Assembly: GCA_001899635.1 (NCBI GenBank)
Contig: MKVQ01000030.1
Location: 108,463-147,829, forward strand
Direction of reading: 5' to 3'
Length of the DNA stretch: 39,367 bases
Source of the DNA: Myxococcales bacterium 68-20
GTDB lineage: Bacteria > Myxococcota_A > Polyangia > Polyangiales > Polyangiaceae
Every line of letters starts with the position of its first letter. Positions within the stretch are counted from its first letter, which is position 1. Shown here one piece after another: positions 6,572-16,258 of this stretch. The notes beneath the pieces are model-generated. The model was not told the DNA's origin and did not search any database. It saw only the letters and a program-made list of their open reading frames with translations. The translations under genes and the position numbers were made by a program.

Positions 6572-7578
6572 TGCCCGACGACTCCAAGCGAGGTCGGTCC
6601 GACACTCAGCCTCGCGCGTACGGGCGCCTGCGCGCCACGTTCATCCGGAGAAGAGGGGCGTGGCGCAAACACGATCAGCGCGCCACCTGCGGCGGCGACC
6701 ACGGCGCCCGACACGATGGCGACGGTCGCGCCGTTCGCGAGCGATCGAGCGTCGGTGGCCTCGCGCACTGCATCCCCCGGACAATCATCGACGGCCCGGC
6801 AGAGAGAGCGCGCTTGGTCGTAGTCGCCCTTCGCGACGAAGCCGAGGACGATCCCCGTGATGAGCGAGGCCGCGCCGGCACCGGCGAGCGCTACACCCGT
6901 GGCTCGCGCCGGCGTCCACCACGACACGCTGCGCGCCGGTGCGGTCGGCGCCGCGGCGGCCGGAGGAGGAGAAGGCGCGATCTCGAGCACGGGGACCTCG
7001 ACGGACCGACTCTCGCCTCGCACGAGGACCCGCGCGCGCCACGGCACGCGGCCGGGGGCCTCCGCCGACATCTCGTGCTCTCCGTCGTCGACCGGGATGC
7101 CGACGCCCCACTCCGCCGACGCGAGCTTGCTTCCGTCGCGCGACACGACGAGCCCCGGAGAGCGCGCGGACTCCGGGACCACGACGGTCAGCCGGACGAG
7201 CTTGGGCGCCAGTCCCTCCGCGTTGGTCCGCGCGGCAGTCTCGAGGTCGGCGCGCCCGATTTTGCGAGCGAGTCCCTCGGCCTCGCGAAACGCGGCCCAG
7301 GCGCTCGCGATCCGACCGAGGCTCTCGTAGCAGCTCCCCAGGTTGAGAAGCGTGCTCGTCTTCGGATCGGCCTCGTGGCTCGCCGCGAACTTGGGACACG
7401 CGGCCTCGTAGCGTCCGGATTCCACGTCGGAGAGCGCGCTCTCGAACAGCTCCTGCGCACGCACGCGACGAGCGGCAACGTTCGCGTCCTCTCCTCGGGC
7501 GGTCGACGTCACCATCACGAGCGCGAATGCTGCGCCCACGGCCCCGGCGCGAATGCGCGAGAAGAGGACGCGCCTCAC
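6565..7578 (-). CDS. TPR-like exported protein with C-terminal membrane segments
   Basis: The 337-residue protein starts with a GTG at 7578 that overlaps the TGA of the kinase gene. It has a signal peptide (about residues 1-29, ending STARGED). A tetratricopeptide-like helical region follows (about 35-125: AQELFESALSDVESGRYEAA, TLLNLGSCYESLGRIASAWA). A beta-rich segment comes next (about 128-200: LVRLTVVVPE, DDGEHEMSAEAPG), resembling the PEGA-type domains often found after kinases in this group. After a Pro/Ala linker there are two hydrophobic segments (about 233-255 and 285-305) around a short Cys-containing loop. This architecture is frequent beside Ser/Thr kinase genes in Polyangiales; its exact role is unknown. 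Confidence 0.78.
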   Translation of the reverse strand: MRRVLFSRIRAGAVGAAFALVMVTSTARGEDANVAARRVRAQELFESALSDVESGRYEAACPKFAASHEADPKTSTLLNLGSCYESLGRIASAWAAFREAEGLARKIGRADLETAARTNAEGLAPKLVRLTVVVPESARSPGLVVSRDGSKLASAEWGVGIPVDDGEHEMSAEAPGRVPWRARVLVRGESRSVEVPVLEIAPSPPPAAAAPTAPARSVSWWTPARATGVALAGAGAASLITGIVLGFVAKGDYDQARSLCRAVDDCPGDAVREATDARSLANGATVAIVSGAVVAAAGGALIVFAPRPSSPDERGAQAPVRARLSVGPTSLGVVGQW

Positions 7579-9056
7579 TCGCGCACCCGGAAGAATCGGC
7601 CGGCGTCCGCGCCGCCCTGGGAGATCGACGCGCTCGAGCTCGCTGCCGGCGGCGGATGGACGAGGCCCGACTTCGCAGGCGAGACGGATGGCCGATGTCC
7701 GACCGGCGAAGCGGCGGCACCAGGCGCGCGCGCCGAACCTCCGCCAGCGGCGGACGCCGGAGAGCCCGCCGCTGCCGGCGTGATCTCGGCAGGCGCTGCG
7801 AAGTCGGCCGCGCTCGTCGCGGAGCCGATCGACGGCGATGGCGACGCCTCATCGATCGTTGCCGAGGCCGTCCCCGGCTGATTGCCGAGATCGCTCGCCT
7901 TGGGCTCCGCCTCGGGGGTCCCGCGGTGACGAAAGAGGAGGAGCACCGCGATGGCAACGGAGAAGAGGAGCGCGAAAGCGAGCGGGCGAACGGCGCGTGG
8001 CTCCGGCTTCGTCTCCGTCGTGATCGCGAGCTGCGTCTCGGCCAACGCGAGGTTCGACCGATTCGAGGTCGCGGCAGGCGGAATCGACGTCGCGAGCATG
8101 GCAGCCTCGTCGCTCGGCCGTCCGGTCCCCGCTCTCGCGATGTCGGCGACCCGCTCTGCGATCGCGCGATCGCGAACGTGCGCGAAAGGCGCGAGCGCCG
8201 AGGCGAGCTCGCCAACGCCCCCGAATCGGTTGCGCGGCTCCTTCTCGAGGCAACGGAGGATGAGCCACTCGAGCGCTTCCGGAAGATCGGGGCGAAGAGC
8301 TCGCGGCGAAGGCGCCGCGTCCTGGCTGGCCTTGAGGCCGATCTCGAGCGCAGTCGGCGCCTCGAACGGCAGCCTGCACGTGAGCAGCTCGTACAGGACG
8401 ACGCCGATGGACCAGATGTCGGTCCGCTCATCGACCTCCTTGGAGGAGCGCATCTGCTCCGGCGACATGTACGCCGGCGAACCGAACACGGTGCTCGTGG
8501 TCGTCAGCGACGACTCGCTCGAGCCCGCTGGGTCGGTCAACTTGGAGATGCCGAAATCGAGCACCTTGACGTGGTCGCGCCCGTCGTGGCCGCGGGTGAG
8601 AAAGAGGTTCGCCGGCTTCAGATCGCGATGGATGATTCCGGCAGCATGAGCCTCGGCGAGAGCGTCGCACGCCTGGAGCACGTAACTCGCAGCCTCCTCC
8701 ACCGAAAAGGGCGCGCCCCGGGCGCTCAGCTCGGCGTCGAGGTCGCGTCCCTCGAGGAACTCCATCACGATGAACGGACACCCGTTCTCGAGTCGCCCCG
8801 TGTCGAGTGTCCTGGCCACGTGCGGGCTCTTCAGCCGCACCGACGCGCGCGCTTCCCTCGAGAAGCGCTCGACGAGCCCAGGGCGTTCGGCGGACGCGGG
8901 AAGGAGGAACTTGAGCGCGACCTTCTGGTCGAGATCGAGGTGGGTCGCCGCGACGACGACGCCCATCCCACCCATCCCGAGGATCCGCTCGACCCGGTAC
9001 TTCGATGCGAGAAGCTCGCCGACCTTTACCGGTGGAGCGTTGGGAAGATCGAGCAC
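7575..9056 (-). CDS. Eukaryotic-like Ser/Thr protein kinase, membrane anchored
   Basis: The 493-residue kinase phosphorylates Ser/Thr on unknown cytoplasmic targets. All catalytic motifs are intact: glycine loop GMGGMG (27-32), VALK with Lys49, HRDLKPAN with Asp145 and Asn150, DFG at 167-169, and SPE at 198-200 closing the activation loop. After the kinase domain (about 20-285) comes a juxtamembrane linker, a transmembrane helix near residues 355-375 (LAFALLFSVAIAVLLLF) and an Ala/Pro/Ser-rich extracytoplasmic tail. I chose the GTG at 9056 because an AGGGGA lies 9 bases upstream and the kinase fold begins about 15 residues later; the longer open frame up to 9416 has Arg-rich, non-homologous sequence. 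The gene overlaps the next by GTGA and heads a three-gene operon. Confidence 0.9.
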   Translation of the reverse strand: MLDLPNAPPVKVGELLASKYRVERILGMGGMGVVVAATHLDLDQKVALKFLLPASAERPGLVERFSREARASVRLKSPHVARTLDTGRLENGCPFIVMEFLEGRDLDAELSARGAPFSVEEAASYVLQACDALAEAHAAGIIHRDLKPANLFLTRGHDGRDHVKVLDFGISKLTDPAGSSESSLTTTSTVFGSPAYMSPEQMRSSKEVDERTDIWSIGVVLYELLTCRLPFEAPTALEIGLKASQDAAPSPRALRPDLPEALEWLILRCLEKEPRNRFGGVGELASALAPFAHVRDRAIAERVADIARAGTGRPSDEAAMLATSIPPAATSNRSNLALAETQLAITTETKPEPRAVRPLAFALLFSVAIAVLLLFRHRGTPEAEPKASDLGNQPGTASATIDEASPSPSIGSATSAADFAAPAEITPAAAGSPASAAGGGSARAPGAAASPVGHRPSVSPAKSGLVHPPPAASSSASISQGGADAGRFFRVRE

Positions 9057-9503
9057 GAGTGAAAATCCCCTTGCGAGGATACGCGCCGGCGCCGGGAGGG
9101 ACAAGGTTCGCTCTGGCCCCAAGAATGCGCGACGCCGCCCCCTGCGAGCGCAGCATCGAGGACGCTTGGCCACGGAACGGGCGCAACGATGCGATGCGAT
9201 GCGAACGCGCCGGCTCTCGAGCCGCGGTGATGGTTCTCCGCGGGCGCCACGCGACAGCGAAGCCGGATCCCCGCCGGAGAGCGACGATGTCGCTCTCCCT
9301 CGCCGCGGCCTCTCGTTTCGACCGCCGAAGCGTGAGACCGTGCATTTTCCGTTAACACCCCGATGGCCCTCACGCGTCCTCGAAGACGTGGAGCCGAGAT
9401 GAGCTCGGCACCACATCCGCCCGGTGCGGTCGTCTCGTACACGACCGGCCGGCGCTCATTCGACTGGCTCGCTCCAAAGCGAATCAGGGTTGGAGACGAT
9501 GCA
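9057..9503. promoter_or_regulatory. Divergent intergenic region between kinase and sigma-factor operons
   Basis: These 447 bases carry the promoters of two divergent operons. The AGGGGA ribosome binding site of the kinase gene is just inside, at its left end, and GGAG precedes the plus-strand ATG at 9504 by 9 bases. The only AT-richer patch is near 9345-9358 (TGCATTTTCCGTTAACACC). I could not identify a sigma-specific -35/-10 pair, and no small gene stands out. Confidence 0.4.
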
Positions 9504-10487
9504 ATGCAGAAATCGAAGCTGATGCTTGCACTGGGGTGTCTCGGGTCGATCCTCGCGTGCGGCGACCTGGGCGACGTCGACAAACGGCCTCCGCTCGCCG
9601 TGATCGAGGGACAGCTCAGCGTGGCTAGCACGAGCGCGGACCTCGGCCAGACCGCGAACGTCCGTGTCGCGGTGCTCTGGGGCACGAGCACCACGGGCTA
9701 CAAAAACTCGGTCGACGCCCCGGTGTCCCCGGTGTTTCCATCGAAGTTCCGGCTCGAGATCACCGACCCGCCGCCGGCCGATTCGATGGTGGGTCCGGCG
9801 CCGGAGCCCGCGCCGACGGAGGACAACACCTCAGGGCTGAGCCAGCGGATCGTCCCGGCGAATACCCCCGGTTCGGGCGGGTACAAGGTGGCGTCCGGGA
9901 GGATCGTCGCCTACGAGGATCGGAACGGCAACGGGCGCCTCGACCTCATCGGCCCGGACATGGCGCCGGTCGATCGCGTGCTCGGAACGAACGACGAGCT
10001 CGCCGTCGTGTACTTCGAGGGCGACCCTCCACCGCTCGACGAATACGGAACGCCTTCCAACGCGACCCGGGGCTACAACCTGCGGAGGACTCCGTACTGT
10101 CCGCCCCCGACGCGGTCGGGGCAGACGACCCCCTGCGAGCTCCCCACCTGGCTGCCGATCACGACTCCGTACGAGCTCCTGATCTCCGCCGATCCGGAGC
10201 TGGCGGGAATGATGTGCGACAGCACGACTGGAACGATGGATGCGTACCCGGACACGTCCAACGTCAAGCCGGGAGAGACGCCTCCCCCGGGACCGGGCCC
10301 GAGCGGGTGGCCGGCCGCGGACGATCCGAGTCTCCGCTGCATGCCGGACGGCAAGAGCTACTCCTACGGCACGTGCGAGACCACGTCGAAGGGCCTCTGC
10401 AAAGGGTGGGTCCAGCGCTGCTCCCACGACCGGTGGAGCCTGCCGGCCGGGGAACCGCCGGCCGGCTGGCCGTGCCCGATCAAGTGA
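9504..10487 (+). CDS. Lipoprotein with a calcium-binding-like loop, first gene of the sigma operon
   Basis: The 327-residue exported protein has a signal peptide and lipobox (GSILACG, Cys at about 19). The ATG at 9504 is preceded by GGAG and places the signal first; the open frame from 9363 adds a non-signal leader. The mature part is beta-rich and Pro-rich. It carries an acidic loop (EDRNGNGRLDL, around residues 138-148) of the calcium-binding type seen in dockerin or thrombospondin type-3 repeats. The C-terminal third holds paired Cys residues (CPPP, TPCEL, MMCDS, LRCM, TCETTSKGLCKGW, RCS, WPCP), likely disulphides. Only 4 bases separate it from the sigma-factor gene, so it is probably cotranscribed. 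Function unknown. Confidence 0.78.
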   Translation: MQKSKLMLALGCLGSILACGDLGDVDKRPPLAVIEGQLSVASTSADLGQTANVRVAVLWGTSTTGYKNSVDAPVSPVFPSKFRLEITDPPPADSMVGPAPEPAPTEDNTSGLSQRIVPANTPGSGGYKVASGRIVAYEDRNGNGRLDLIGPDMAPVDRVLGTNDELAVVYFEGDPPPLDEYGTPSNATRGYNLRRTPYCPPPTRSGQTTPCELPTWLPITTPYELLISADPELAGMMCDSTTGTMDAYPDTSNVKPGETPPPGPGPSGWPAADDPSLRCMPDGKSYSYGTCETTSKGLCKGWVQRCSHDRWSLPAGEPPAGWPCPIK

Positions 10488-10491
10488 GCGT

Positions 10492-11025
10492 GTGAGCGAG
10501 GGACTGAGCAATCGCGAGGTCGCGGACCTCTATCGCCGGTACGGGTTCTTCCTGCGCCGGCGATGCCTCGTGCTCCTTCGGAATTCTTCCCTCGCGGACG
10601 ATGCGTTCCAGGAAACGTTCATGAAGCTGATGCGCGCTGGAGCTCCTCTTCGTACCGCCGACGAGCCGTTGCGATGGCTCTATCGAGTCGCGGATCGAAC
10701 GTGCTTCGACCTCCTGCGAAAGACGAAGAACACGCGTCGCTCGTCGTCCATCGACGAGATGCCGGAGGAGCTCCCGGCGCATCCCGGCGTCGAACCCGAG
10801 ATGCGTCGTGCCGCGATCGAGCTGCTCGACGCGCTCGACGACGAGGATCAGCGGATCGCCGTGATGGCCTTCGTCGATGGAATGAACCAGCAGGAGATCG
10901 CTGACGAGCTCGGCTACTCGCGCATGACGATCATCAAGCGGATGGCGCGACTTCGCGAGCGCGCGCAGCGCGTGCTCGCCGATCGACCGCGTCTCGTGGC
11001 GCCGCGACACGGAGGCCCGTCATGA
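10492..11025 (+). CDS. RNA polymerase sigma factor, ECF-like (sigma-70 family)
   Basis: The 177-residue protein has the two domains of a small sigma factor. Region 2 (about 13-80) contains the ADDAFQETFMKLMR core-binding helix and the RWLYRVADRTCFDLLRK helix that would read the -10 element. Region 4 (about 107-160) contains DDEDQRIAVMAFVDGMNQQE followed by the helix-turn-helix IADELGYSRMTIIKRMARLRE. I chose the GTG at 10492, four bases after the preceding stop; the frame is open further upstream but overlaps the lipoprotein gene. Its end overlaps the anti-sigma start (ATGA at 11022-11025), the usual arrangement for a sigma factor and its inhibitor. Promoter targets, including its own operon, are unknown. 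Confidence 0.88.
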   Translation: MSEGLSNREVADLYRRYGFFLRRRCLVLLRNSSLADDAFQETFMKLMRAGAPLRTADEPLRWLYRVADRTCFDLLRKTKNTRRSSSIDEMPEELPAHPGVEPEMRRAAIELLDALDDEDQRIAVMAFVDGMNQQEIADELGYSRMTIIKRMARLRERAQRVLADRPRLVAPRHGGPS

Positions 11026-11744
11026 GCGAGCACCCCGCGCAGTTTCACCTCGATGCCTACGCAGCGGGGGATCGCAACGAGCAGGTCACCGGCCACCTCG
11101 AGACCTGCGAGGCCTGCACCGACTATGTCGAGAAGGCGCGCGCACTGGCGGCCGCGTTCTCCGAGAACGAAGGCGCGAAGGCGGCAGAGTTCGTCCTTGC
11201 CCTCGACGACGAGCGACGTGCCGGTTCGGGGGACGCGGTGGTCGACGAGCGTGGCCGCCCGGAGCGGCCTCGCCTGTCGCGTCGGGCGGCGTGGATCGGC
11301 GGAACGATGATGGCCGCCGCCGCGGCGCTCCTCCTCGTTCGGACCAGCTCAGAGAACACGGGGCCGTCGTCCGTCTCGAGCGAGCCATCCGTACGCTTCA
11401 AGGGGAAGCAGCAGATCGCCGTCATCCGCGACCGGCGGGGGGAACAATCGCGCATCACGACCGAGGTCCGTGTGAGACCCGGCGATCAGATACGCGCCGA
11501 GATCAGTGTCGATGAGACACGCCCGATCGAGGTAGGGTTCCTCGGAAAGGACGGAACGTGGATCTTGCTCCTGGCGCCCGCCCTCGTCGAAGCAGGAACG
11601 TACTTCTCCGAGCGCGCGGCCCGATTCGACGAGAGTCCGACGGAGGGCTGGGTAATCGCGGGGCATCCCGAGGAGGTGAGCCGAGCAAAGACGACACGGG
11701 CCTTCGACGAGGTGAGCGTTCTTCCGGTCATCGCCGAACCATGA
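11022..11744 (+). CDS. Zinc-binding transmembrane anti-sigma factor
   Basis: The 240-residue protein would hold the upstream sigma factor inactive at the inner membrane. Its N-terminal cytoplasmic domain has the HxxxCxxC zinc motif (H25, C29, C32 in HLETCEAC), the mark of ZAS-type anti-sigma factors. One transmembrane helix follows (about 88-107, WIGGTMMAAAAALLLV). The periplasmic part (about 110-240) is predicted beta-rich (KQQIAVIRDRRG, TTEVRVRPGDQIRAEISVDE, PIEVGFLGKDGTW) and resembles the sensor domains of similar myxobacterial proteins, though I cannot name its ligand. The gene overlaps both neighbours by ATGA, so the three proteins are likely made in fixed ratio. Confidence 0.83.
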   Translation: MSEHPAQFHLDAYAAGDRNEQVTGHLETCEACTDYVEKARALAAAFSENEGAKAAEFVLALDDERRAGSGDAVVDERGRPERPRLSRRAAWIGGTMMAAAAALLLVRTSSENTGPSSVSSEPSVRFKGKQQIAVIRDRRGEQSRITTEVRVRPGDQIRAEISVDETRPIEVGFLGKDGTWILLLAPALVEAGTYFSERAARFDESPTEGWVIAGHPEEVSRAKTTRAFDEVSVLPVIAEP

Positions 11745-13309
11745 TCCGCTGCGTCTCCTCGTTCCTCGTCACGGTGGCGACGCTCCTCTTCATGTCGTCG
11801 ACGTGCCAGGCCGAGCCGATCCGACTGATCGTCGCCGTCGGTCATCGCTTCGGTTTTCCCGGAGACGCGCCGCTGAAGCACGCCGCGCGAGACGCGACCC
11901 GCGTGCGCGACGTATTCGTCGACCTCGGCGGAGTTCGGCCGGAGCATGCGACCGTTCTCCTCGAGCCCAACCGAGCGGCGCTCTTCGCGACGATCGACAA
12001 GCTGGCCGCCCTCACGAGCGGCCGCCGCCGAGAAGACGTCTCCGTCCTCTTCTACTTCAGCGGGCACGGGGATCGCGAGGCGCTCCACCTCGGCGTCGAG
12101 CGCCTCCCGTTGCGCGATCTCGACAGCAAGCTCGCCGCCATCCCTGCAGCGCTCCGGATCATGGTCACCGACGCATGTCGAACGTCGGACCTGCGCGGCA
12201 AGGGGGTCACCTCCGCCGATCCGTTCGCCATCACGCTCGACGCAGATCCGGGAGCGTCGGGGGTGATTCGCCTCCACGCGTCCACCGACGGCGAGATCGC
12301 TCAGGAGTCCGACGAGCTTCGGGCAGCGGTCTTCACGCACTACTGGCTGAGCGGGCTATCCGGCGCCGCGGACACCAACGGCGATGCGCGGGTGACGTTC
12401 AGCGAGTCCTACGCGTTCGCTTACAGTCAGACGCTATTTCGTTCGGCGCGCACCTCGGGGGTCGTGCAGCGTCCGGCCGTGGAAGCGACCGTCCGCGAGG
12501 GCGCGCCGATCGTGCTGACGCGCACGGCGGGCACCTCGCGCCTCAAGCTCCCGCGGGGCGCAGACCACCACTACATCGTCTACGGCGTCGGCTCCCGCAC
12601 GGTGGCAGGCGAGCTATGGAGCTCATCCGAGCGAAGCGTCGTGCTCGCCGTCGCTCCGGGGAAGTACATCGTCCATCGTCGCGCGGGTGGACACTCCGCC
12701 GCGACGCAGATCGACGTCGCCAAGAACGAGGAGCGCGAGCTCCATGCATCGGAGTTTCGCGCCGTGCCGGAGGAGGTGCTCGCGCGGAAAGGAAGCGACC
12801 TCGTCCTCTTCCCGAGCGAGCTCTCGCTCGGCTACGCCGCTCGCACGGGCCGTCTCTACGACGTCGGCCACGAGCTCTCATTTCGCTACGAGTACGCATC
12901 GGACGCGTTCGCGATCGGCCTCGGCGCGCTGGGCGGCGTCGGCAGCATGGATCGCACGACGCAGGAAGCGACGCTCTCATGGCTGGGAGCCGAGGCGATC
13001 GCCGAGGTCCGCTCGAAGCTCGGAGACGTGACGCTTCGCGCCGGAGCGGGCCCCCGCGTCGTCGCGCTCGTGCAAGCGCTCCGACGGACCGATGCAGCGC
13101 GGCTCGCTCTCGCTGGATACGAATCCGAGCAGCGCTTTCGCGGAGCGACCCTCGGTGGGCACGCCCTCCTCGGCGCCCGACTCGCGCTCGGCTCGCGAAC
13201 GTGGGTCGATCTCGATGCGCGTGGCGAGCTCTCCGGCCTCCGCATGCAAGGGTCGCTCGCCGCGACGTGGACCGCAGGCATCGGGACGGCCGTCGGGATG
13301 TCGTTCTGA
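11741..13309 (+). CDS. Caspase-like (peptidase C14) protease with predicted C-terminal outer-membrane barrel
   Basis: The 522-residue exported protein starts at the ATG at 11741 (ATGA overlap with the anti-sigma gene) with a signal peptide ending near STCQA. Residues about 27-235 form a caspase fold. The catalytic His109 is in FYFSGHGD and the catalytic Cys146 in VTDACRTSD, with the family's RLIVAVG strand first. An EF-hand-like loop (DTNGDARVTFSE, 211-222) follows, as in calcium-dependent relatives. After a beta-rich linker (about 255-360) the last about 160 residues are amphipathic strands with many aromatic ends, terminating in Phe (GMSF), as expected for an outer-membrane beta-barrel. Caspases of this type cut after basic residues, but the substrate here is unknown. 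The barrel is a prediction from the pattern. Confidence 0.83.
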   Translation: MIRCVSSFLVTVATLLFMSSTCQAEPIRLIVAVGHRFGFPGDAPLKHAARDATRVRDVFVDLGGVRPEHATVLLEPNRAALFATIDKLAALTSGRRREDVSVLFYFSGHGDREALHLGVERLPLRDLDSKLAAIPAALRIMVTDACRTSDLRGKGVTSADPFAITLDADPGASGVIRLHASTDGEIAQESDELRAAVFTHYWLSGLSGAADTNGDARVTFSESYAFAYSQTLFRSARTSGVVQRPAVEATVREGAPIVLTRTAGTSRLKLPRGADHHYIVYGVGSRTVAGELWSSSERSVVLAVAPGKYIVHRRAGGHSAATQIDVAKNEERELHASEFRAVPEEVLARKGSDLVLFPSELSLGYAARTGRLYDVGHELSFRYEYASDAFAIGLGALGGVGSMDRTTQEATLSWLGAEAIAEVRSKLGDVTLRAGAGPRVVALVQALRRTDAARLALAGYESEQRFRGATLGGHALLGARLALGSRTWVDLDARGELSGLRMQGSLAATWTAGIGTAVGMSF

Positions 13310-13806: not shown

Positions 13807-14602
13807 ATGACCGAATGCACGGAGTGTGGACGGGAGCTCGCAGCGCATGAGCTCGACGTCGGCTTCTCGTTACCCGACGAGGTATGGGAGCTCGCGCCGA
13901 GCGACCGGTCACGCCGAGCCGATTCAACCCCCGATGTCTGTGTGCTCGACGGAACGAGGTTCTTCATTCGGGCGGTCGCCGTCCTCCCCGTCGAGGCCAG
14001 CCAAGAGAGCTTCTGCTGGGGCCTGTGGGTCGAGGTATCGGGCGAGGAGTTCGAGCGCTGCCGGCAATCCAGCGACCTCGACGCGCCTGGCAAGCCCTCG
14101 GGACGAGGAATCATTGCGAACAGCCCGCAAAGCTATCCGCCGCTCACGGGGCATCCAGTGGCGATCGAGCACAGAGGCGCGCACGAGCGGCCATGGCTCC
14201 ATCTGGAGGCGTCGGATCACCCGATGTCGCGCGAACAACGAGAGGGCGTTTCGTACAGCAGGGTGCACGAGCTCGTACGTCCATTCGTCCCTGCCCCGAA
14301 GGGAGAGAGCGACGCGACCTGGCCGTTCGACCAAGCACCGAACGTCGCCGCCATCACCACGGTTCAGGTCCTGACACAGAACGCCCCCATCCTCCGGGTG
14401 ACCCCACTATTCCAACGATCACTCGTGGGCGTTCCTCTGCGACACGACCGGCGATACGAGCGATGGTCGGGTCATCTCGATGGCCAGCGCCGTCGGGTTG
14501 GATCCCACGGTTCAGGAGGTCGCCGACCTTCCACCTGGATGGACGGCGACGCGTGCTGCGCCCGGAACGCCATGGGATCGCGAGTGGGATCCGGACATGT
14601 AG
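13807..14602 (+). pseudogene. DUF2199-DUF2185 fusion gene, interrupted by a one-base frameshift
   Basis: The frame opens at the ATG at 13807 with a zinc-ribbon-like start (CTECGREL), then the DUF2199 pattern: VCVLDGTRFFIRAVAVLPVE, SFCWGLWVEVSGEEF, and LEASDHPMSREQREGVSYSRVHE to about residue 160. A second domain of the DUF2185 (Imm33-like) type follows: NVAAITTVQVLTQNAPILRVT. At the run of four Cs at 14402-14405 the frame is lost. Omitting one C restores the domain: HYSNDHSWAFLCDTTGD, DGRVISMASAVGLDPTVQEV, LPPGWTATRA, ending DPDM and TAG at 14600-14602. The repaired protein would be 264 residues. Either this gene is recently inactivated or the base call is wrong. Functions of both domains are poorly known; DUF2185 relatives occur among toxin-immunity proteins. 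Confidence 0.75.
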
Positions 14603-14956
14603 AGCAGCCTCTACCTCCGTCACTCGCCTCCTCCGTGCCGCGCCCCGGCGGTGTCGATTTCGGCGAAAGCACCGCGCCACCACGTTGCATTCTACACTCA
14701 ACAGGACTGGTCCCCGAAGTGACCATCTGTGTGGGGACCGTTCGGGAGCTTCGCGTCGTCACGCCTGACGGACAGCGCGCCGATCGGTCAGAGCCCCTCG
14801 GCTCGAACGGGCACATCCGCATCGAGATGGTCGCGCACATGCCCCGCGCGAACGGGCGTGACGTCTCGTGGTGCGCGTATCGCGAACCTCCCGACAATGG
14901 CGAAGATGCCGATTAGCTCATTCACATCGCGGCACTAGCCTTGTATCCTCGGCCCG
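14603..14956. other. Intergenic stretch, possible degraded coding remnant
   Basis: Between the frameshifted gene and the DUF4388 gene lie 354 bases with no clear gene. Two plus-strand frames give gene-like fragments that would join through a frameshift: APRHHVAFYTQQDWSP (near 14667-14715) and VTICVGTVRELRVVTPDGQ continuing to a TAG at 14914-14916. There is no ribosome binding site or family match. It may be the tail of a decayed gene, or chance in GC-rich DNA. Confidence 0.25.
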
Positions 14957-16258
14957 ATGACTGCCGAGGAGGATGATCTCGTCGAGATCGCGGTCTCCGG
15001 CGAGGCGAGGGCGGTCGGGGCACGCGCTGCGCGCCGGCTGCAGGCGCGCGCAGGCGCCTTCGAGCTGCTCCCCTCCCCGGCGCACTACGTCGTCATGAAG
15101 CAGACGGCCGACGGTGCAGCGGACGCGCGGTCGTACCTCCTCTCGGGAGAGATCCGGTCCGCCGGCGTGCTGTGCGACTTCCTCTCGTTCGTGGCGCACA
15201 CCGGCTGGCGAGGAGAGTTCCTCGTTCGCGATCCGGACGACGGCACGTCACGCTCCATCTTCTTCGAAGACGGCAGCGTCGTCGCGGCCCAGTCGACGGC
15301 GAAGAGCGAGCGGCTCGGCGAGGTGCTCTACCGCTACGGCGTCCTCACGCGCGAGCAAGTGGTCCGGTGCAGCGATGCGAGCGCGGATGGCTCGCTTCGC
15401 TTCGGCGAGGCCGCGGTGAAGCTCCGGTTCCTGACGCGCGAGGATCTGTTCGCGCACATGAGCCGCCAGACCGAGGAGGTGGTCTACGGGATGCTCCTCG
15501 CTTCGCGCGGCATGTTCTACTTTCTCGACGGCTTCGACGAGAGCCAGCTCTCGTGGCGGCAGCCGCTCTCGATCAGCACCCTCGTGCGAGAAGGCATCCG
15601 CCGGATGCACGAGACGAAGTACTTCCGCGCGCGCATCCCTTCCGACAATCACATCCCGGTGCGCGTGCCGAATCGGCAGCCGCCGGACGGCGATTCGCTC
15701 GGGGTCTACGCGGCGGTCGACGGACACCTCAACATCGCGGAGCTCGGCCGGCTCGTTCATGCCGGAGAGTTCGAGGTCACCCGCGCCGTCTTCCAGCTCA
15801 TCCAGAGCGGGCACGTCTCCGTCCGGGCCCCACTGCTCGCGCCGCGCAGCATCGTCGATGCCTACAACCAGGCGATCGGGCTCATCTTGCGCGAGCTCGA
15901 CGCGATGGACGAGGGCGACGCGGTGCGGGAGCAGCTCGCGGCCTTTGCGGTCCAGCGTGGAATGTCGTCGATGTTCGAGGGCGCCGGTCCTGCGGACGAC
16001 GGCACGCTGGACGGTGCTCGGATCGAGCAGAACCTCACGATGCCCGGTTGGGGGGATGACCCCAACCAGCGCCTCGCCGACAGCCTCTACGAATACGCGT
16101 CTTACGCCCTGTTCCTCGCCCGCCCGCATCTGCGTCGTCGGAACGAGGGCAAGTCCTCACGTGAACCGAAGAGTCGTCTCTCGGTGCGCGTCTCCGAGCT
16201 TCTCGAGCCGATCTCTCCGCAGTCGAAGCGGACGTCGGCGCTCGACCGCCAAGAATGA
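14957..16258 (+). CDS. DUF4388 domain protein
   Basis: The 433-residue cytoplasmic protein carries a DUF4388 (PATAN-like) domain in its N-terminal half. The segment from SYLLSGEIRSAGVLCDFLSF through TGWRGEFLVR, SIFFEDGSVVAAQS, GEVLYRYGVLTREQ to YGMLLASRGMFYFLDGF spans about residues 55-195. Such domains occur in gliding and signalling proteins of myxobacteria and are thought to serve in protein-protein contact. The middle (about 215-300) resembles a winged-helix-like segment (LNIAELGRLVHAGEFEVTRAVFQLIQSGHV). The remainder is helical. The gene overlaps the next by ATGA and forms a coupled cassette with a lipoprotein and a pseudokinase. Confidence 0.82.
   Translation: MTAEEDDLVEIAVSGEARAVGARAARRLQARAGAFELLPSPAHYVVMKQTADGAADARSYLLSGEIRSAGVLCDFLSFVAHTGWRGEFLVRDPDDGTSRSIFFEDGSVVAAQSTAKSERLGEVLYRYGVLTREQVVRCSDASADGSLRFGEAAVKLRFLTREDLFAHMSRQTEEVVYGMLLASRGMFYFLDGFDESQLSWRQPLSISTLVREGIRRMHETKYFRARIPSDNHIPVRVPNRQPPDGDSLGVYAAVDGHLNIAELGRLVHAGEFEVTRAVFQLIQSGHVSVRAPLLAPRSIVDAYNQAIGLILRELDAMDEGDAVREQLAAFAVQRGMSSMFEGAGPADDGTLDGARIEQNLTMPGWGDDPNQRLADSLYEYASYALFLARPHLRRRNEGKSSREPKSRLSVRVSELLEPISPQSKRTSALDRQE

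Follow-up and report, generated by a model that had tools for sequence, protein, structure and literature searches.

Closest described systems

Operons that combine the genes of a sigma-70 factor and a metacaspase were noted in 2012 in Myxococcus xanthus, Anaeromyxobacter, Haliangium, Sorangium, Ralstonia and Fibrobacter (Asplund-Samuelsson et al., PMC3501461). The section of that paper on these operons describes a caspase homolog with a sigma factor; it gives no anti-sigma factor, barrel, lipoprotein, cut-site motif, promoter or mechanism. Here we describe a locus of Myxococcales bacterium 68-20 that very probably belongs to the same or a sister system. It lies in a stretch of 39,367 nucleotides (contig MKVQ01000030.1, positions 108,463 to 147,829), called the window below, and encodes a lipoprotein, an extracytoplasmic function (ECF) sigma factor, a membrane anti-sigma factor and a caspase-like protease with a predicted C-terminal outer-membrane barrel. 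Comparison of related loci suggests that the caspase is most likely the site-1 protease of its own anti-sigma factor and thereby drives its own operon. A preliminary description of the window had called the arrangement not an established system. This has to be corrected for the sigma-caspase operons of myxobacteria, which are already known, and stands in so far as the 2012 section proposes no mechanism; new here are the barrel, the cut-site code and the promoter.

The proposed mode of action resembles the DegS/RseA/RseP/sigma-E cascade, where an inner-membrane anti-sigma factor with a periplasmic part is subject to a periplasmic site-1 cut followed by the action of a site-2 protease (PMC10028731). 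However, DegS is an inner-membrane PDZ protein of the trypsin type, whereas the candidate site-1 enzyme considered here would be a caspase anchored in the outer membrane, with its gene in the operon of its proposed target. Since this protease has the caspase fold, the cassette may be said to work like DegS/RseA regulated intramembrane proteolysis, not to be a member of that system. The other close parallel is the Csx29/Csx30/CASP-sigma module of type III-E CRISPR, in which a protease of the caspase clan (CHAT) cleaves a protein that inhibits an ECF sigma factor (PMC10028731). The latter system, as presented there, is triggered by RNA and its inhibitor was purified and soluble, whereas the window encodes an exported protease, a membrane anti-sigma factor and a barrel. 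In addition, a regulatory function has been proposed for CHAT domains found next to ECF54 sigma factors (PMC8999054), and caspase-ECF neighbourhoods have been described in conflict systems (PMC8195603). Among the papers listed from an open-access library, no title or opening abstract described the action of a caspase on an anti-sigma factor within the periplasm, an exported caspase tethered by a barrel, a cut-site motif shared with a membrane anti-sigma factor, or the promoter described below.

The four-gene operon and its conservation

The operon consists of the following genes.

9504-10487, + strand: lipoprotein, 327 aa, lipobox ILAC, no Pfam family
10492-11025, + strand: ECF sigma factor, GTG start, 177 aa
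11022-11744, + strand: anti-sigma factor, 240 aa; zinc motif, transmembrane (TM) segment 85-108, low-confidence linker, periplasmic beta domain 129-240
11741-13309, + strand: caspase-barrel protein, 522 aa, C-terminal residue Phe

The lipoprotein and sigma factor genes are separated by 4 bases, and the sigma/anti-sigma and anti-sigma/caspase pairs each overlap by 4 bases. The gene upstream, encoding a kinase, and the DUF2288 gene downstream are both on the opposite strand. Thus the four genes most simply form one operon; their order, coordinates and tight spacing, as first described, were all borne out. The sigma factor consists of sigma regions 2 and 4 only (Sigma70_r2, E 2e-11; Sigma70_r4, E 2e-8), with PF04542, PF04545 and TIGR02937 all above cut-off. 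Inhibition of this sigma factor by the adjacent anti-sigma factor is putative and is suggested by adjacency. The closest named relative, with 69% identity across the caspase, is a Labilithrix metagenome-assembled genome, and the organism is accordingly very likely a myxobacterium of the Polyangiales.

Caspase matches at E 1e-8 occur in at least 53 of the 183 genomes of the order, and the range of the cassette extends to Myxococcus and Fibrobacteria. The family set was formed by 60 of 100 caspase places, taken as wider stretches, and 19 of the 78 loci of a second search; the counts of 70 exclude 10 loci that duplicated others. At 64 of the 70 distinct loci the caspase gene has a sigma and an anti-sigma gene on its own strand, at a distance of no more than about 3 kb. 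The sigma factor is missing at the other six, four of which (L042, L044, L144, L147) are near a contig end. The order lipoprotein, sigma, anti-sigma, caspase, whose conservation the preliminary description had proposed to check, is found at 40 loci. The other orders are sigma, anti-sigma, caspase (12 loci); caspase, sigma, anti-sigma (8); and sigma, anti-sigma, caspase, lipoprotein (3). At one further locus sigma, anti-sigma and caspase are accompanied by a lipoprotein prediction on the other strand, which is probably spurious. At eight loci (L149, L165-L168 and three more) the sigma/anti-sigma pair is downstream of the caspase, with a gap of about 0.7 kb before the sigma gene.

The converse search gave a similar picture. 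A caspase match is present within 4 kb of 76 of the 83 strong anti-sigma relatives among the matches listed. Two of the remaining seven, L222 and L223, have a divergent caspase on reading; at L221, L224 and L226 no caspase was seen in the pieces available, which are shorter than 8.8 kb. The last two, L220 and L225, are considered with the cleavage motif.

The protease and its predicted barrel

The caspase-barrel protein has the following parts.

11741-11812, + strand: signal peptide, residues 1-24, by inspection
11813-12523, + strand: caspase fold, residues 25-261, with His109 (12065-12067) and Cys146 (12176-12178)
12815-13303, + strand: eight-stranded barrel (predicted), residues 359-521

The protein matches Peptidase_C14 with E 1.3e-8, and PF00656 was found in all 19 family members scanned. 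The catalytic dyad, correctly assigned in the preliminary description to His109 and Cys146, is invariant in 70 of 70 distinct members, the window included. The AlphaFold model (alignment of 19 sequences, mean predicted local distance difference test, pLDDT, 83.3) comprises the signal peptide region, the caspase fold (25-261), a second beta domain (approximately 262-345) and eight long strands (359-521). Residues 25-261 superpose on procaspase-3 with Z 22.7 (VIA-align, 199 residues, root-mean-square deviation, rmsd, 2.5), and procaspase-7 is matched likewise. The top Foldseek matches of the protein are the MALT1 caspase and caspase-Ig entries. This is reminiscent of the MALT1 paracaspase, where an Ig domain follows the caspase. 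However, these caspase-Ig alignments, made with the whole protein, superpose poorly (rmsd 14-26). MALT1 prefers a basic residue at P1, and is not known to have a barrel or to be exported.

The candidate barrel strands are 359-370, 375-386, 390-404, 408-427, 430-449, 463-482, 487-502 and 505-521, with mean pLDDT of 80-97 in 10-residue blocks from residue 361 onward. Foldseek matched this part to NspA, OmpA, OmpX and OmpW. The outer-membrane barrel that had been suspected in the last 160 or so residues is thus predicted as eight strands of the OmpA/OmpX type over the last 163 or so residues of the window protein. With this prediction and the gene orders given above, the arrangement withstood both refuting tests named in the preliminary description. 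The predicted strand number and fold are those of OmpA, OmpX and NspA; unlike these proteins, this barrel follows a protease in the same chain, and a basic-Gly linker joins the two. The termini of a barrel with an even number of strands both lie in the periplasm, and therefore the N-terminal protease should face the periplasm. Among the 66 members with a complete C-terminus, its median length is 172 residues, and a hydrophobic stretch above the helix-like threshold of 1.6 occurs in four; this count leaves out four of the 70 caspases, which are truncated or have another C-terminus. In one family caspase (L050:2917-4392) a CsgG/FlgO-like domain stands in place of the barrel.

Two acidic residues of the candidate S1 pocket are conserved: D51 in 68 of 70 members (E in the other two) and D144 in all 70. 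By inspection they were equated with D95 and D211 of the T. brucei metacaspase, which are named in a paper that ascribes a preference for basic residues to caspase homologs (PMC8283722). On this correspondence a basic P1 residue is predicted for the window caspase; specificity of this kind fits the conserved pocket.

The anti-sigma factor and the shared basic-Gly motif

The anti-sigma factor of the window has an H-x3-C-x2-C motif and one TM helix (85-108, of low confidence in the model). The motif is present in 58 of the 65 anti-sigma members, window included, and a TM-like segment was seen by hydropathy in all 65. The window protein has no Pfam match; among 47 members scanned, zf-HC2 (PF13490) was found in 21 and DUF4384 in 10. 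DUF4384 is also found with cyanobacterial orthocaspases (PMC8283722, PMC7475262). In the model the TM segment is followed by the only stretch with pLDDT below 50 (110-123), K127-G128, and a confident beta domain (129-240). For this domain Foldseek gave nothing at E <=0.001, and the best VIA match, to the Ig-like alpha2-macroglobulin, was weak (Z 9.1). In Fibrobacteria, L046 and L048 have the cassette with a K-G anti-sigma factor whose zinc motif is not recognisable in the frame read.

Three basic-Gly pairs are proposed as cleavage sites.

12200-12205, + strand: caspase K154-G155, proposed self-processing site, in a low-confidence loop after Cys146
12788-12793, + strand: caspase K350-G351, proposed release site, between the second domain and the barrel
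11400-11405, + strand: anti-sigma K127-G128 (R-F-K-G), proposed site-1 cleavage point, in the linker outside the inner membrane

The first pair is eight residues past Cys146 in a loop of varying length; K-G is present there in 70 of 70 caspases, and R-x-K-G in 62. This loop is the counterpart of the linker that is cut when caspases are activated. The pair at 350-351 is KG in 62 caspases and RG in four, that is, basic-Gly in 66 of 70. The third pair, K/R-G, occurs 8-49 residues beyond the TM segment in all 65 anti-sigma factors, with K in 63 and Arg at P3 in 49. In the caspase model pLDDT falls below 50 only at 1-23 (the signal peptide), 151-170 and 350-352, and thus the segments with K154-G155 and K350-G351 are probably flexible. 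K127 comes shortly after the low-confidence stretch of the anti-sigma linker.

In the form R-x-K-G, the motif is absent from both control sets. Shuffled anti-sigma linkers contained K-G in a mean of 13.8 of 65 cases, as compared to 63 observed. A control set of 17 further zf-HC2 proteins, drawn from seven genomes and each with a TM-like segment, had R-x-K-G in none and K-G in two; these are the loci, out of 40, kept by a crude TM and length filter with no caspase near, although at least one of them, L175, resembles a kinase, and the motif of L180 is far from the match. Caspases outside the system were taken from the other 59 of the 78 loci of the second search, 58 of which have D-x-C (one locus, L109, has a sigma hit nearby). 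R-x-K-G was found in 0 of these 58, as opposed to 62 of 70 in the family. We infer that the shared K/R-G motif marks a cleavage site in both the caspase and the anti-sigma factor. Action of the protease on the anti-sigma factor, suggested in the preliminary description, is likely on this pattern.

The same residues could have a purely structural role, as turns before beta strands, in a cluster that is merely co-regulated. K127-G128 and K350-G351 do stand just ahead of folded beta regions, and two orphan anti-sigma factors, L220 and L225, retain K-G, and sigma factors as well, with no caspase found within 8.8 kb. But K154-G155 is inside the 151-170 stretch of pLDDT below 50, yet is kept in 70 of 70 members while its distance to the Cys varies, and we consider the structural explanation very improbable. 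L220 also carries a lipoprotein, and L220 and L225 could be served in trans.

It is also conceivable that the K-G segment is a pseudo-substrate that is never cut, so that the periplasmic part of the anti-sigma factor keeps the caspase in check, or signalling is held down by the caspase. Conservation of a site within a flexible linker suits binding no less than cutting. This model does not sit well with the presence of the same motif in the barrel linker and in the caspase's own low-confidence loop after Cys146, since the region after the catalytic Cys is a place where caspases are cut. We regard it as quite improbable, and cleavage at the shared motif as the preferred explanation.

Divergent cassettes of type II

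The genome that contains the window has a second, divergent set of sigma, anti-sigma and caspase genes (L210: 3512-4123, 4120-4938 and 4935-6842). Its caspase loop is ARKPGG, and its anti-sigma linker contains TARGG. By eye, the C-terminus of the L210 caspase is unlike the barrel, with several hydrophobic stretches, and the final residue is Phe.

Caspases of this type, called type II, have the loop xRGPGG or xRKPGG. Out of 26 loci examined, 21 have both the caspase loop and the anti-sigma factor, and 19 of these have a recognisable basic site in the loop; the type was defined after the loops had been seen, and the loop of L245, one of the 19, deviates somewhat. In these 19 loci the caspase loop has RG in 7 cases, R[KR]PG in 11 and KG in one, and the anti-sigma factor has RG in 17, KG in one and R-S in one. 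At L229, the sole locus whose caspase loop carries K-G, the anti-sigma factor carries K-G as well. Thus the basic residue tends to change jointly in the protease and its candidate substrate.

The candidate promoter

9352-9378, + strand: ECF-like promoter TTAACA-N16-GCGTC, before the operon

The upstream regions of window-like loci have TTTACA-N16-GCGTC in common. The motif was derived from 34 upstream regions and scored on 35 including those, with spacers of 15-17 allowed. With at most one mismatch it is found in 12 of the 35, and all 12 are among the 16 window-like regions, whereas shuffled sequences gave a mean of 0.1 and none of 280 windows taken from operon bodies matched. When three mismatches are allowed, the matches outnumber expectation only slightly (25 versus 13.2). 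The site at 9352-9378 is the only exact match to TTWACA-N16-GCGTC in the host genome of 11.9 Mb.

In 12 genomes of the genus there are nine exact matches. This does not exceed the 12 matches of a reversed-pattern control, so that the count alone is uninformative and only the placement of the matches speaks for the motif. Eight of the nine lie upstream of a family lipoprotein gene, including two (L218, L219) at places not used for motif discovery. Thus the operon very likely has its own promoter, and its own sigma factor would be the simplest reader of the site. The feedback on its own expression that had been suggested for the protease is likely on the same grounds. No wider regulon is visible: genome-wide, 35 matches with at most one mismatch compare with 32 in the reversed control. 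The Sorangium-like loci did not show the motif, and 19 of them gave GC-rich best two-box words barely above shuffles; both this absence and the control count weigh against the mechanism proposed below. At L218 the exact promoter (1501-1527) precedes lipoprotein-like frames in two pieces. Its contig differs from those of the caspase matches listed for that genome, and the frames may belong to a broken or third copy.

The arrangement behind the promoter also admits a model in which the caspase is the output of the system. In that case the sigma/anti-sigma pair would sense stress via another protease, and the caspase would degrade periplasmic or foreign proteins in the envelope, in predation, lysis or quality control. 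Indeed, the caspase gene is the last in the window operon, the promoter stands before the whole operon, and many substrates are conceivable for an exported caspase. However, this model leaves unexplained the K/R-G pair in the anti-sigma linker (65 of 65, with R-x-K-G in 0 of 17 controls), as well as the mostly Arg form of the motif in type II. We consider it rather unlikely.

Proposed mechanism

We favour, by a little over even chances, a self-contained signalling cassette acting across the envelope, in which the caspase cuts itself and the anti-sigma factor, the sigma factor is freed and the operon is transcribed by its own product. The parts of the cassette, their co-occurrence, the shared motif and the promoter-like element are established by comparison; the order of cuts, the site-2 step, the signal, the role of the lipoprotein and the recognition of this promoter by the sigma factor are proposals. 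The caspase would be exported to the periplasm and held at the outer membrane by its C-terminal barrel. On an envelope signal it may cut itself after K154 and become active, as caspases do. A cut after K350 would free the protease from the barrel and allow it to cross the periplasm. The next cut, by the freed caspase, would fall behind K127 of the anti-sigma factor, close to the outer face of the inner membrane. The shortened anti-sigma factor could be finished by the site-2 protease of the cell, releasing the sigma factor. The TM stub left by such a cut is of the kind processed by M50 proteases, and the genome has several matches to PF02163, the M50 site-2 type. Finally, the released sigma factor would transcribe its own operon from the promoter at 9352-9378. 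The coupling of an exported protease to its own sigma/anti-sigma pair, as set out in the preliminary description, is supported by sequence and models.

Several further observations weigh against this scheme or parts of it. The barrel was modelled on the window protein only, and the 66 complete members end in F in 41 cases and in W in six. Seven of the 65 anti-sigma factors lack H-x3-C-x2-C in the chosen frame or start, although one of them (L144) is cut by the contig end. Four of the 70 caspases, one of them truncated, have no basic-Gly at 350-351. Of the 58 outside caspases, 17 have a plain K-G no more than 15 residues from the Cys. L049 and L129 have R-G in the anti-sigma factor but K-G in the caspase. 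In type II loci, the anti-sigma factor of L223 has R-S instead of R-G. Two loci beyond the 19, L240 and L247, have the caspase loop RPRD with no basic-Gly and K-G in the anti-sigma factor; for L240 the latter was judged by eye, as automatic scoring took an earlier R-G. The co-variation of Lys and Arg is confounded by phylogeny, since it is mostly one clade split, type I versus type II.

The lipoprotein and calcium-like loops

12371-12406, + strand: EF-hand-like loop DTNGDARVTFSE of the caspase, residues 211-222
9918-9944, + strand: calcium-like loop DRNGNGRLD of the lipoprotein, clade-limited

Both calcium-like loops reported in the preliminary description are present, but calcium as the specific trigger is not supported. 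The pattern of the caspase loop DTNGDARVTFSE is kept in 70 of 70 members, and a similar loop is present in 35 of the 58 caspases from outside the system. Thus it looks structural or general; calcium as a special trigger was rejected for this reason, and calcium may be a cofactor of the caspase. The lipoprotein loop is confined to a part of the family and absent from most Sorangium-like loci, and on that account the lipoprotein was rejected as a calcium sensor. None of the 14 lipoproteins scanned has a Pfam match. As a guess, the lipoprotein could be a sensor or a restraint at the outer membrane.

Neighbouring genes

The gene upstream of the operon (7575-9062, - strand) encodes a Ser/Thr protein kinase. 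It has high scores against the PADLOC PD-T4-6 models, probably only since these models are kinases. A defence-system reading was rejected: when the four proteins and four neighbours were scanned with PADLOC, the caspase matched only a generic model (E 1.5e-4). Downstream of the operon there are also genes of a DUF2199 protein (13807-14916) and a DUF4388 protein (14957-16258).

Implications

It is an open question which proteins are cleaved by the caspase homologs of bacteria and what accounts for their large number in multicellular myxobacteria. Comparative genomics here names both the enzyme and a candidate substrate site at the level of a single residue. In its boldest form, which we put forward tentatively and hold to be somewhat doubtful, the model states that a caspase tethered by a barrel uses one basic-Gly site three times, for self-activation, release from the barrel and the anti-sigma cut, making one self-activating operon a relay from the outer membrane to DNA; the cut site would keep signalling through the Lys-type and Arg-type cassettes of one cell (the window and L210) separate. 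If this is true, self-release from the barrel would solve the problem of how an outer-membrane protein reaches a target in the inner membrane, and the cassette would be a caspase-driven transcriptional relay spanning the whole Gram-negative envelope.

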